DNA from: Azadirachta indica | Taxonomy: Eukaryota > Streptophyta > Magnoliopsida > Sapindales > Meliaceae | DNA length: 64,000 bases | NCBI GenBank assembly: GCA_022749755.1 | Contig: CM040440.1 | Span: forward strand, 12,511,269 to 12,575,268 | Direction of reading: 5' to 3' | Shown: in pieces, positions 18,066-23,439 of the stretch | Layout: every line of letters starts with the position of its first letter | Numbering within the stretch: position 1 is the stretch's first letter | Notes under the pieces: model-generated | What the model was told of the DNA's origin: nothing | Databases searched by the model: none | Seen by the model: the letters and a program-made list of their open reading frames with translations, nothing else | Program-made: the position numbers and the translations under genes

Positions 18066-20203
18066 CTAATACCTACATCTCCTTTTCCTTTCAAAAAATT
18101 TCAGTTGCAGTCGAAAAGTTTTTGCAAGCCATTCTTGTTTCCTTATGCTGAAGATGTGCCCAAGAACGACTCCTATTATCGTCCCACTTGCATATCCAAT
18201 CAAAACTATCTTCCATCCAAATGCAAATGGAGATTCCGAGTCTGGATCTTCTTGTGAATTTTCAGGTTTTTCACATTTTCTTAACAAAGGTTCTCCACAC
18301 AAATCAGGATTTCCATCAAATGAACTAAGATTAAATGTACTGAATTGTGTTCCTTGAGGTATTCGTCCTGTGAGATGGTTATTTGACACATTAAAAACCT
18401 CAAGTGTTGTAAGCTCTTCCAGTTGTTGAGGAATTTCTCCTGAGAGATTGTTATTGGAAAGGTCCAATGATTCTAGTACTATGAGATTATTGAAAGATGA
18501 TGGAATGTGACCTTCGAGATTATTGTTGGAAAGATTGATAGTTCGAAGCCCTTGTAAATTTGTAATTGATGTTGGAATCTCTCCAACAAATTTGTTGTTA
18601 GAGAGAATAATTGCTGTGATCAAATTTGAGAGCTTTTGATATGTCATCTGTGTGCCTTTGTTACATAATGTTAGAGAGTAATCAAAAGAGCCATAAATGG
18701 TGGCCATAGGAAATTTATTTGGATAAAGTTCATCTTCTAAATATTCCAACTTGCTTGCATTGATGTTTTTCATGGCATTCCAATTCTGAAAGAAGTTTGA
18801 TAGAAGATTACCTGTAAACCTATTATGAGAGAGGTCAATGATGCGCAGATTAGGAAACTCAAAACCTACTTTAGGTTCCTTAATTATTCCATAAAATTTG
18901 TTGGATTTCAAAATGAGAACTTGTAACTCTGGAAGATTTCCCAGCCAAGAAGGAAAAATATCCTTGATTTTGTTATCTCCAAGATTAAGAAATTTTAGCT
19001 TCAAACAATTGCCCAATGATTGAGGAATCCTCCCTTGCAATGAATTGTTACTTAAATCAATCATCGCTAGATTTGTTTGGTTGATGAACTTTTGAGGAAG
19101 GCTTCCATGAAAATTGTTGCCTTGCAGTTTTAGTATTGACAACTCATAACTAAAACTGACCAAACATTTTGGAAGCATGCCAGTTAAGTTATTGTAAGAC
19201 AAATCAAGAACATGAAGCCGATACAAGTTGCATATCTTGAGTGGAATTTCCCCTATCAGATGATTGTTAGAAACTAAATAGGAATGGGTAGACATTGATG
19301 GAACTGGGAGAAGTCCTTGCAGCTCATTAAACCTAAGGTCTAAAGTTGTGATAGCAGTCCATGGAAGAATAGAAAGACTCTGCTCGAAGCTTTTCAATAG
19401 ATTGGAAGAAAGGTTCAAATATTCCAAACTATTTGTACTTACATTTAAGAACCACCCAGGTACTTGGCCAGAAATCTTGTTGAAGGAAAGATCCAGAGAC
19501 ATTAATTGATCTTGGTTCTGCAAGAAACGTGGAAACTCATAAAGGTTACATGAACTGAATCCTATAACTATGAATTTCGGCAAAGTGATATTGACAATAG
19601 TTTTGGCGAGCAATGAAATCTTGTTTGACGAGAGCGTCAATATTTCTAAACTTTTCATATTAACAATGAACATGTTTAGATCTATTGTGCCACTCAAATT
19701 ATTCCTCGAAAGGTCAAGCCGTTGAAGATTCTTGAGCTCAACAATAGAACTAGGAATAAAACCTTCCAATCGATTTGAGGCAAGACGTAGATATTGCAAC
19801 TGCGTTAAGTTTCCAATTTCCATTGGTATGTGGCCAGTCAAGTGATTAGAATATAAATTGAGATCTGATAGTTTGTTCAAGTTCATCAACCAAGATGGTA
19901 TTGGACAAGATAATTGGTTATAGACCAAATGTAATACAGTAAGTTGAGTTAGGTTCATGAATGCAGAGCAGATTTCACATGTTATATCGCTATACGAAAG
20001 GTGGAATTCAGTGAGATTTTTGAGACTACGAGTCCAAGAAAAGGATTTAGAATTAAGGCCAAAGAAACTGTTGTTAGAAATTGCCAAATAACTGAGCTGA
20101 GTAAGATTTCCTATAGAAGTGAGTGACTCTCCCTTAAAGCTGTTGAAAGAAATGTCGAGATGGAGGAGTTTGTTGAGGTTACCAATCGAAGAGGATAGTT
20201 TTC
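18066..20203 (-). CDS. Receptor-like protein, exon 2 (LRRs, transmembrane segment, tail)
   Basis: Second exon of a Cf-9/RLP-type cell-surface receptor: 711 full codons plus 2 bases. It starts after the acceptor TACTTGTCAG (AG at 20205-20204); there is no ATG at the start of this ORF. It encodes about two dozen extracellular LRRs of the plant type (L..L..L.L..N.L.G.IP). An island with SLTLCNKGTQMTYQKLSNLI interrupts them, as in this class, before the last four LRRs. The LRR cap carries DGNPDLCGEPLLRKCE. An acidic juxtamembrane part (ENSQEDPDSES) leads to a single transmembrane helix with overlapping small-xxx-small motifs (IGYASGTIIGVVLG) and a short basic tail (FERKRRCRY) with no kinase. RLPs of this form usually signal through the kinase SOBIR1, which is known of the family and inferred here. 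There is no frameshift or stop until 18066. Confidence 0.9.
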
Positions 20204-20458
20204 CTGACAAGTAGCAGTTAAATTAGTATATATATTCCATAAGATATTTAATTATAAATATCATAATAATTAAATATTGACGTAGATATTGCTAATTAAT
20301 TAGCAAAAAAATCTCAGAGGAATCATCTTGCAATCCGCATTCACTAAGAGATAAAAATGTCAAGGCAAGAGAAGTATTGAAGAGGAAATCGTCATCTCAC
20401 TAAGATCCAAGTAAGACAAGGATCTTAAATTTTCCAATAGAGGTATTGGCCAACTCAC

Positions 20459-22267
20459 CTTTAAAGTTGTTATAAGAAATGTCGAGATAAAAGAGCTTGG
20501 TGAGGCTATCAATCGAAGAAAACAATGTTCCTGAAAGCCAGCAGTTAAATAAGTTAGTATTTGATGAGATTTTTAATTATAGATGAGGAATAAAATAAAA
20601 TTAATTAATGGAAAAATATTAGAGGAATTTTGCTAAAAAGGTGGAGAAGCTAACATCCATGTAAGATAACGATCTCAGATTTGCTATAGAAGTGGGCAAC
20701 TCACCCTCAAAGCTATTAGAAGAAATGTCGAGATGGCAGAGCTTGGTAAGGTTACCAATGAAAGAAGATAATTTTCCTCAAAAGTAACAGTTAAAATATT
20801 AATATATATTCCCAGAGGAATCATCTTGTAATTCACATTCACTAAGACATAAAAATGTCAAGACAAGAGAATATGGAAGAGGAAATCTTCGCCTCACTAA
20901 GATTCAAGTAAGACAAGGATCTTAAATTTTTCTATAGAAGTATTGGCCAACTCACCCTTAAAGTTGTTAGAAGAAATGTCGAGATGAAAGAGCTTGGTGA
21001 GGTTTCCAACCGAAGAAGATAATCTTCCTGAAAGTCAGCAGTTAAAAATGTTAGTATTTGATGAGATTTTTAATTATAGATAAGGAGTAAAGTAAAATTA
21101 ATTAATGGAAAAATATTAGAGGAATTTTGCTAAAAAGGTGGAGAAGCTAACATCCATGTAAGATAACGATCTTAGATTTGCTATAGAAGTGGGCAACTCA
21201 CCCTCAAAGCTATTAGAAGAAATGTCGAGATGGCGGAGCTTGGTAAGGTTACCAATGAAAGAAGATAATTTTCCTGAAAAGTAACAGTTAAAATATTAAT
21301 ATATATTCCCAGAGGAATCATCTTGTAATTCACATTCACTAAGACATAAAAATGTCAAGACAAGAGAATATGGAAGAGGAAATCTTCGCCTCACTAAGAT
21401 TCAAGTAAGACAAGGATCTTAAATTTTCCAATAGAGGTATTGGCCAACTCACCTTTAAAGTTGTTATAAGAAATGTCGAGATAAAAGAGCTTGGTGAGGC
21501 TATCAATCGAAGAAAACAATGTTCCTGAAAGCCAGCAGTTAAATAAGTTACTATTTGATGAGATTTTTAATTATAGATGAGGAATAAAGTAAAATTAATT
21601 AATGGAAAAATATTAGAGGAATTTTGCTAAAAAGGTGGAGAAGCTAACATCCATGTAAGATAACAATCTCAGATTTGCTATAGAAGTGGGCAACTCACCC
21701 TCAAAGCTATTAGAAGAAATGTCGAGATGGCGGAGCTTGGTAAGGTTACCAATGAAAGAAGATAATTTTCCTCAAAAGTAACAGTTAAAATATTAATATA
21801 TATTCCCAGAGGAATCATCTTGTAATTCACATTCACTAAGACATAAAAATGTCAAGACAAGAGAATATGGAAGAGGAAATCTTCGCCTCACTAAGATTCA
21901 AGTAAGACAAGGATCTTAAATTTTTCTATAGAAGTATTGGCCAACTCACCCTTAAAGTTGTTAGAAGAAATGTCGAGATGAAAGAGCTTGGTGAGGTTTC
22001 CAACCGAAGAAGATAATCTTCCTGAAAGTCAGCAGTTAAATATGTTAGTATTTGATGAGATTTTTAATTATAGATAAGGAGTAAAGTAAAATTAATTAAT
22101 GGAAAAATATTAGAGGAATTTTGCTAAAAAGGTGGAGAAGCTAACATCCATGTAAGATAACGATCTTAGATTTGCTATAGAAGTGGGCAACTCACCCTCA
22201 AAGCTATTAGAAGAAATGTCGAGATGGCGGAGCTTGGTAAGGTTACCAATGAAAGAAGATAATTTTC
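20459..22267 (-). repeat. Eight 72-nt intronic LRR cassettes with splice-like borders
   Basis: Minus-strand cassettes lie at 22267-22196, 22021-21950, 21770-21699, 21524-21453, 21273-21202, 21027-20956, 20776-20705 and 20530-20459. Each is exactly 72 nt, open in the RLP frame, preceded by AG (mostly TTTCAG, twice TTTGAG) and followed by GTGAGT. The phase is 1 at both ends, so each encodes one 24-residue LRR ending at the conserved Gly. Two kinds alternate: one with SSFIGNLTKL and SSNSFEG, the other with NNFKG (variants SSSVGNLTKLF and FSSIDSLTKLF). The gaps alternate between 174 and 179 nt. The same site in exon 2 reads GGGAGAGT, not GGGTGAGT, so it lacks the donor. Caveat: GGT GAG also simply codes for Gly-Glu of an LRR, and LRR-like coding continues past each donor, so the borders may be coincidental relics. 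Confidence 0.7.
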
Positions 22268-22300
22268 CTGAAAAGTAACAGTTAAAATATTAATATATAT
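20531..22300 (-). repeat. 497-bp tandem repeat in a 994-bp higher-order arrangement
   Basis: The anchor ctgaaag(c/t)cagcagtt recurs at 20531, 21028, 21525 and 22022, exactly 497 bp apart. Units 1 and 3 share the variants gccagcag and caatcgaagaaaac; units 2 and 4 share gtcagcag and caaccgaagaag. Identical variants recur every 994 bp, so a two-unit block was duplicated after the 497-bp unit had formed. Copies within a type differ by only a few bases, which suggests recent duplication or gene conversion. Confidence 0.85.
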
Positions 22301-22339
22301 TCTTAGAGGAATCATCTTGTAATTCACATTCACTAAGAC

Positions 22340-22643
22340 ATTATCTATTTCTAAAGCAAATCTAAGATCGTTATCTTACTTGTATGCTAGCTCCTCCACC
22401 TTTTCAGCAAAATTCCTCTAGTGTTTTTCTATTAATTAATCTTACTTTATTCCCTATCTATAATTAAAAGTCTTATCAAATACTAACTTATTTAACTGCT
22501 GGCTTTTAGGAAGATTATCTTCTTCGGTTGGAAACCTCACCAAGCTCTTTCATCTCGACATTTCTTCTAACAACTTTAAGGGTGAGTTGGCCAATACTTC
22601 TATAGAAAAATTTAAGATCCTTGTCTTACTTGAATCTTAGTGA
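22340..22643 (+). repeat. Inverted copy of the RLP array unit
   Basis: This block is the reverse complement of part of the 497-bp unit. It reads agcaaatctaagatcgttat, then the AT-rich spacer, then tttaactgctggcttttagg and an LRR stretch with LTKLFHLDISSNNFKGEL on the plus strand. It is flanked by unit sequence in the normal orientation: to its right, 22643-22670 holds the start of a cassette (gaaaattatcctcttc) cut off by the inversion. One complete LRR cassette lies in the inverted block. Confidence 0.85.
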
Positions 22644-22766
22644 GGTGAAGAGGATAATTTTCCTAAAAAGTAACAGTTAAATGTTAATATATATTCCATG
22701 AGATATTTAAATATAGACATCACAATAACATAACATTAGTTAGCATGAAAATCTTAGAGGAATCAC

Positions 22767-23439
22767 CTTGCAATTCGCATTTTCTGAGAGATAAAAATGT
22801 CAAAGAAGATAAAGTTGTTAAGGCGAGAGGTATGGAAGAGGACATTTTCACGTGACTAAGATCAAGCACCTTGAGATTGGGTAGCTTTTCAACAAGATTT
22901 GTTAGATTTGGGTTTTGAAGCTGCAAATGATTCCGTGATACATCAAGAAAAACCAACTGGGAGAGCTCTATTAGCTCTGATGGTATTTGACCCGAAAAGC
23001 CAGAATAAGAGAGGTTTAGATATGATAACCTACTAAGGTTAATGATCCCAGATGGGATATTGGATGAACTGAAATCATTATCAGCGAGGCTAAGCCATCG
23101 AAGATGAACTAAGTAGAACAGACTACTGTTAGAGTTGATAGAACCGTAGAGAAAACTGCTACTAAGATCGAGCTTGATAACATGACCAGTGTCTTCATCG
23201 CATTTGATGCCATCCCAAGAGCAACAGTTATTATTTTGTTTATCTGAATTCCATGAAGCAACCTTTGAGTAAGCAGAAGGATCAGAAGAAACAGTCTGAT
23301 TAATGATAAAGTTTTGCTTGAATTGCAACAAGGCAGAACGCTCATTATCATGGCAGTCTGCAAGCGTAAGATGAAATAATGAGAGTAAAACAAGGAATAT
23401 CTGGATAAAAGTGAAGGAGCACGGAGAAAATCTCATCAT
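22767..23439 (-). CDS. Receptor-like protein, exon 1 (signal peptide, LRR N-cap, first LRRs)
   Basis: First exon, 673 nt (224 codons plus 1 base), from the first of two adjacent ATGs at 23439. Residues 1-27 are a signal peptide (hydrophobic IFLVLLSLFHLTLA). The LRR N-terminal cap follows, with DCHDNERSALLQFKQNF and CCSWDGIKCDEDTGHV, the two Cys pairs usual for RLPs. Then come LRRs such as LVHLRWLSLADNDF and LSRLSYLNLSYSGFSG. The proposed donor is CAAG|GTGATT at 22767/22766, cutting a Gly codon after its first base. Joined to exon 2 it gives LSLRKCELQG then KLSSSIGNLNKL, and the 24-residue LRR spacing is exact across the junction. Total predicted length is 936 residues, normal for this family. 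Without splicing the frame ends at 22720. The junction is predicted from sequence only. Confidence 0.85.

Follow-up and report, generated by a model that had tools for sequence, protein, structure and literature searches.

The sole intron of a gene for an LRR receptor-like protein (RLP) in Azadirachta indica (neem) carries an array of repeated, exon-like sequence, which is probably a decaying tandem exon duplication within an RLP gene cluster. The anatomy of the array, the related modules in paralogous genes, the dead donor sites and the lack of detected constraint were observed directly. The normal product of the gene is most likely a receptor of 936 amino acids, obtained by direct splicing of exon 1 to exon 2. 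The preliminary description of this intron had regarded eight 72-nt segments in it as stored mini-exons, from which receptors with zero to eight additional LRRs could be made. The whole stretch of DNA analysed, here called the window, comprises 64,000 nt (C1:12511269-12575268) of a genome of 280.8 Mb in 21 contigs.

The Receptor Gene

Joined to each other, exon 1 and exon 2 (Table 1) encode an intact LRR receptor-like protein of 936 amino acids. A Pfam scan of the joined protein identified LRRNT_2 (PF08263) at residues 30-81 and LRR families above the cut-off, and no kinase family was matched by the window protein. A putative membrane span, IVLIGYASGTIIGVVLGHIF, was assigned by eye. The protein consists of an N-terminal LRRNT and an extracellular LRR array, and is kinase-less with a short tail after the span, as is characteristic of an RLP. 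In a scan of the Protein Data Bank, its relatives were mostly plant LRR receptors. Among the best 120 of 7199 protein database matches, the closest were a 'Receptor-like protein' from Melia azedarach and RLP6/RLP7 from Citrus; four Melia azedarach entries showed 73-78% identity over 97-100% of the protein, and none of these 120 was more than 80% identical, so that they include no recognizable entry from the species itself. With the exon 2 protein, at least 102 matches were identified in the neem genome, several of them clustered around the window gene on C1. Elsewhere in the window, a reverse transcriptase fragment (RVT_1, PF00078) is present on the forward strand at 1867-2301, a retrotransposon remnant.

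Table 1. Features of the receptor gene and of its intron (positions in the window)
Feature	Position	Strand	Remarks
Exon 1 of RLP gene	22767..23439	-	673 nt; LRRNT, first LRRs, signal peptide judged by eye; ends CAAG/GTGATT, phase 1
Sole intron	20204..22766	-	2563 nt; GT-AG, phase 1, 31.7% GC
Exon 2	18066..20203	-	2138 nt; rest of LRRs, stop; membrane-spanning end judged by eye
Likely original short intron	22663..22766	-	104 nt; ends TAG, own acceptor at 22664-22663
Inverted copy of A-tail, intron and B segment	22349..22651	+	94% complementary to 21880-22182
Partner arm of predicted stem	21880..22182	-	166 nt between arms
497-nt unit 1 (A segment + B module)	21771..22267	-	
497-nt unit 2	21274..21770	-	21 differences from unit 1
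497-nt unit 3	20777..21273	-	1 of 497 positions differs from unit 1
Unit 4	20280..20776	-	diverges toward intron end near exon 2
72-nt segment A1	22196..22267	-	
72-nt segment B1	21950..22021	-	
72-nt segment A2	21699..21770	-	GAG precedes
72-nt segment B2	21453..21524	-	
72-nt segment A3	21202..21273	-	
72-nt segment B3	20956..21027	-	
72-nt segment A4	20705..20776	-	GAG precedes
72-nt segment B4	20459..20530	-	
Dead three-LRR module B1	21819..22021	-	203 nt; contains stops; AT replaces GT of donor
Dead module B2	21322..21524	-	203 nt; stops; donor AT
Dead module B3	20825..21027	-	203 nt; stops; donor AT
Dead module B4	20327..20530	-	204 nt; stops; donor AT

Organization of the Intron

The intron is built from a repeat of 497 nt, present in about four copies, each of which contains one A and one B segment. 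All four B modules are dead, with a broken frame, stops and AT in place of the donor GT; the three window modules that were aligned share a deletion of 16-17 nt and an insertion of 1 nt. Behind the A segments, exon-2-like LRR sequence continues for 28 more codons before a stop is reached. Downstream of the B segments, sequence resembling the end of exon 1 was identified, and this sequence, like the acceptor copy close to exon 1 (Table 1), is absent from the preliminary description. The stretch bordering exon 1 that is listed as the likely original intron compares with an intron of 102 nt in the paralog L043. Between this stretch and the inverted copy lies a stub which resembles the start of exon 2.

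Diversifying selection on the segments was considered for the differences between B1 and B2, since 10 of 72 positions differ in the segment compared to 11 of 425 in the rest of the unit (Fisher 2e-4). This was rejected: the differences between units 1 and 2 cluster at unit positions 220-343, beyond the limits of the B segment. Because the patch exceeds the segment and both copies lie within dead modules, mosaic duplication or conversion is likelier.

The 72-nt Segments and Their Borders

The basic description of the eight segments was confirmed. Each one is 72 nt long, open, encodes one 24-residue LRR and is directly followed by GTGAGT, and each is preceded by AG, in the form of CAG for six and GAG for two of them (at 21770 and 20776). 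Both ends are in phase 1, as are the exon 1 donor and the exon 2 acceptor, and when all eight are inserted together, a single open frame continues to the normal stop. These features are what would be expected of real mini-exons used in variable number, a reading which is nonetheless unlikely. In its favour, the left borders copy the true end of the intron, and the segments are separated by 174-179 nt of 29-32% GC. The donors match the consensus at seven to eight of nine positions, compared to seven of nine for the exon 1 donor of the gene, so that the splice signals appear adequate. Moreover, no indel or stop was found within the first 72 nt of 13 aligned module rows, in comparison to about eight or nine separate lesions in the remainder (hand count), for which a chance of about 0.03-0.04 under an even spread was calculated by hand.

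GTGAGT occurs eight times in the intron, whereas 1000 mononucleotide shuffles contained it 0.30 times on average. Since the segments are copies, with four distinct 72-nt sequences among them, these are not eight independent events. GAG is a rare form of acceptor, and its presence at two of the eight segments speaks against their use as exons.

A different origin is indicated by the start of exon 2 in related genes. At 72 nt into exon 2, GTGAGT is present in 8 of 13 genes (L042, L043, L044 and L047-L051) and GTGAGC in L052, and the same position reads GAGAGT in the remaining four (the window gene, L039, L040 and L041). In the nine genes with GTGAGT or GTGAGC, the hexamer lies inside a continuous coding match in one frame, where it forms part of Gly-Glu codons. 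The distance of 72 nt results from the length of an LRR, which is 24 residues. It follows that the left border of the segments was copied from the intron end, whereas the right border descends from coding sequence. The claim that the borders mark stored exons was therefore not upheld, and the caveat attached to it, that they could be relics of duplicated coding DNA, turned out to be the better-supported reading.

Related Arrays in Paralogous Genes

For comparison, 18 loci were taken from the genome. The 497-nt unit itself gave 43 matches in the genome, 38 of them on C1. Seven paralogs (L043, L044 and L047-L051) contain short introns without an array, and three distinct paralogs contain arrays in the same intron, with two modules in L039, four in L040 and four in L042. 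In the arrays of L039, L040/L041 and L042, the unit is 219 nt long, encodes three LRRs, is in phase 1 at both ends and terminates at a donor of the exon 1 type. The right border of this unit thus differs from that of the 72-nt segments, which also argues against the latter as stored exons. Repeats that carry intron ends, share one phase and resemble exons of the same gene are the hallmark of tandem exon duplication; the 219-nt modules of these paralogs fit this pattern, and in the window gene they are degraded. In L044, the exon 2 acceptor (L044:3976) is GAG instead of CAG, and the exon 2 match of this locus contains four stops.

Four of the ten distinct paralog modules can be joined to the exons without a stop (L039c1, L040c1, L040c2 and L042c4). 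In silico splicing read through to proteins of 1009 amino acids with L039c1, 1009 with L040c1, 1082 with L040c1+c2 and 1050 with L042c4. With other modules the frame ended early, at 263 (L039c2), 294 (L040c3) and 326 amino acids (L042c2), and the combination L040c1+c2+c4 ended at 443, due to a stop formed at the c4 junction. L040c3 contains a stop, and L039c2 and L042c1-c3 contain frame changes or internal stops, the latter being present in L042c1 and L042c3.

That the array or its inverted copy is an artefact of the assembly was also considered. The loci L040 (C1:267000-275000) and L041 (C1:12710500-12718500) are located 12.4 Mb apart and share 99.6% identity across 7.9 kb, where they are separated by 2 mismatches as against 14 gap openings. 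This suggests an assembly duplicate or indel errors in the consensus, and the frameshift in exon 2 of L041 may be such an error. In addition, a 1.4-kb copy of the 3' end of the window gene is located about 40 kb away (L046:4724-6143, C1 ~12.489 Mb); it is 99.7% identical, with no mismatches and two gap openings. For the array and its inverted copy, an artefact is nonetheless extremely improbable: other paralogs hold related arrays of different sequence, and the arms of the inverted repeat differ at 18 of 303 positions, unlike those of a fold-back read.

Constraint on the Array Sequence

Omega was determined by a purpose-made codon model of the MG94 type on FastTree trees, in short tests of 23-73 codons for the array sequence. 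For the five internally open paralog modules, a value of 0.96 was obtained, which is not different from 1; here, omega 0.5 was disfavoured (2dlnL 5.8) and 0.6 was not rejected (2.96). All ten paralog modules gave 0.89, again not different from 1. In five of the genes, omega was 0.50 for exon 1 (2dlnL against 1 = 19.8) and 0.67 for exon 2 over its first 240 codons (8.9); matched exon pieces of 73 codons gave 0.455 (10.7) and 0.494 (4.5). By these values, the full modules seem to be under weaker constraint than exon 1. The fitted transition bias was also higher for modules (4.9-8.7) than for exons (1.8-2.6).

For the 72-nt part, omega was 0.84 in the ten paralog modules, with neither 1 nor 0.5 rejected (2dlnL 2.0 for the latter), and 0.97 when the four window sequences were added (14 in total), with neither 1 nor 0.7 rejected (1.2 for the latter). 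Nine pieces comprising the first 72 nt of exon 2 gave 0.53, and omega 1 was not rejected at 5% (3.54). Because the data are too few, the constraint on the 72-nt parts is not separable from that on exon 2. Taken together, coding constraint on the array sequence was not detected in these short tests, with which an omega of 0.6-0.7 is compatible, and the same holds for purifying selection on the segments, which counts against their being stored or used as exons.

Origin of the Array

A decaying tandem exon duplication would have started from an ancestral intron of perhaps 100 nt, flanked by similar LRR codons on either side. Unequal recombination between these codons could have generated units composed of the intron end, the start of exon 2 and the end of exon 1. 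In the paralogs, such units would be the 219-nt modules of three LRRs in phase 1/1. In the window gene, they would have been reduced to stubs of 72 nt by additional duplication, by deletion and insertion, by loss of donors and by one inversion. These stubs stay open, and each would terminate at an inherited pair of Gly-Glu codons which by chance reads GTGAGT.

Inserts in Melia azedarach Proteins

A protein search aimed at the segment region identified the Melia azedarach entries P0002, P0005 and P0062, and other LRR proteins as the remainder (best 120 of 4508). In P0004, exon 1 is joined directly to exon 2 with no insert. P0002 contains two exact 24-residue inserts at the junction, and P0005 contains two 24-residue inserts and one module of 73 residues. 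Inserts of 24 residues at the intron position are thus present in two of four close Melia gene models, the support for which is uncertain. P0006 contains a module-like stretch as well as the sequence FCLSG, which resembles the translation of an intron end. The remaining aligned entries, P0010, P0026 and P0062, are less alike at the junction. The inserts in P0002 and P0005, along with their absence from P0004, are what variable use of mini-exons would produce, but FCLSG in P0006 implies that the Melia models may be unsupported predictions.

Since the Melia models carry none or two of the 24-residue inserts, they hint at the intron as a live reservoir, in which the 72-nt segments are sometimes spliced in as mini-exons to give a receptor of variable length. 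The predicted hairpin of the intron could then tune the use of the segments or give rise to small RNAs against sister receptors. Such a reservoir seems improbable.

The Inverted Copy and the Predicted Hairpin

The inverted copy in the intron had been overlooked in the preliminary description. Together with its partner arm, it would form a stem of 303 nt, 94% of which is paired. No difference was found over 138 nt which include segment B1 (partner 22023-21886); 17 of the 159 positions before this identical part differ, and one of the six positions after it. For 22660-21870, the predicted RNA fold has an energy of -486.3 kcal/mol, compared to a mean of -161 (sd 5.8) for 20 shuffles. The stem, if formed, would pair the borders of B1, a further point against the use of this segment as an exon.

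A near-perfect inverted repeat of this length is the kind of structure from which a long intronic RNA hairpin could be diced to small RNAs acting on the RLP transcripts of the cluster. This function is quite doubtful for the neem intron. The 283 21-mers of the partner arm were compared to 15 coding sequences, and with up to one mismatch, 20 of them match coding exons of L042, 14 those of L043 and 7 those of L044; five shuffled arms gave no match to L043, even at three mismatches. However, there is a single perfect 21-mer among the 15 coding sequences, and none with up to one mismatch to the exons of the gene itself, of L039 or of L040. For the exons of the gene itself, four 21-mers match with up to two and 28 with up to three mismatches, and nine more distant paralogs were not matched by any stem 21-mer even at three mismatches. 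For L039, L040 and L042, the stem fits the intron array better than the exons (counted at up to three mismatches), the highest number of perfect sense-arm 21-mers in such an array being 20, in L039. In addition, no inverted counterpart was found in L039-L044, and a search of the window against Rfam gave no match at the gathering score.

Comparison with Known Systems

As a decaying tandem exon duplication, the array may represent an intermediate stage in the gain and loss of repeats by LRR receptor genes. LRR modules which are duplicated into an intron along with their splice sites could be tried, skipped and lost without harm to the receptor. If any of the segments were spliced in, plants would have a receptor whose length is varied by splicing. 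At the same time, the intron serves as a warning that frame-neutral LRR segments with splice-like borders can arise simply from GGT GAG as codons for Gly-Glu.

In the literature, no report was found on tandem exon duplication of plant LRRs, on exon skipping in LRR-RLPs, or on unequal crossing-over and LRR number; this is a weak negative, in a search that covered few subscription journals. At the level of protein records, the RLPs from Melia and Citrus are similar to the neem protein, for which LRRNT_2 and LRRs but no kinase were matched in Pfam. The four close Melia models differ from one another in their 24-residue inserts. The tomato Cf-2/Cf-5 (Hcr2) receptors form a clustered RLP family in which the number of LRRs changes by unequal recombination, the extra repeats being located within the coding sequence. 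In neem, by contrast, the repeats are intronic and most of the modules are broken.

In rice, antisense small RNAs derived from pseudogenes are reported (PMC2708354), which speaks for the small-RNA reading of the neem hairpin. The rice loci consist of duplicated gene fragments that could yield antisense small RNAs; the neem array likewise consists of duplicated fragments, but its inverted fragment lies inside the intron of the gene itself. For VLR2 of the crab Eriocheir sinensis, ten isoforms are described which differ in the length of the LRR region and are attributed to alternative splicing, the reading frames of all ten having been amplified (PMC10045472). As described there, crab VLR2 works in the way that was first proposed for the neem segments, but it is a different gene in a different lineage, and for the neem segments splicing of this kind is a prediction from the DNA.
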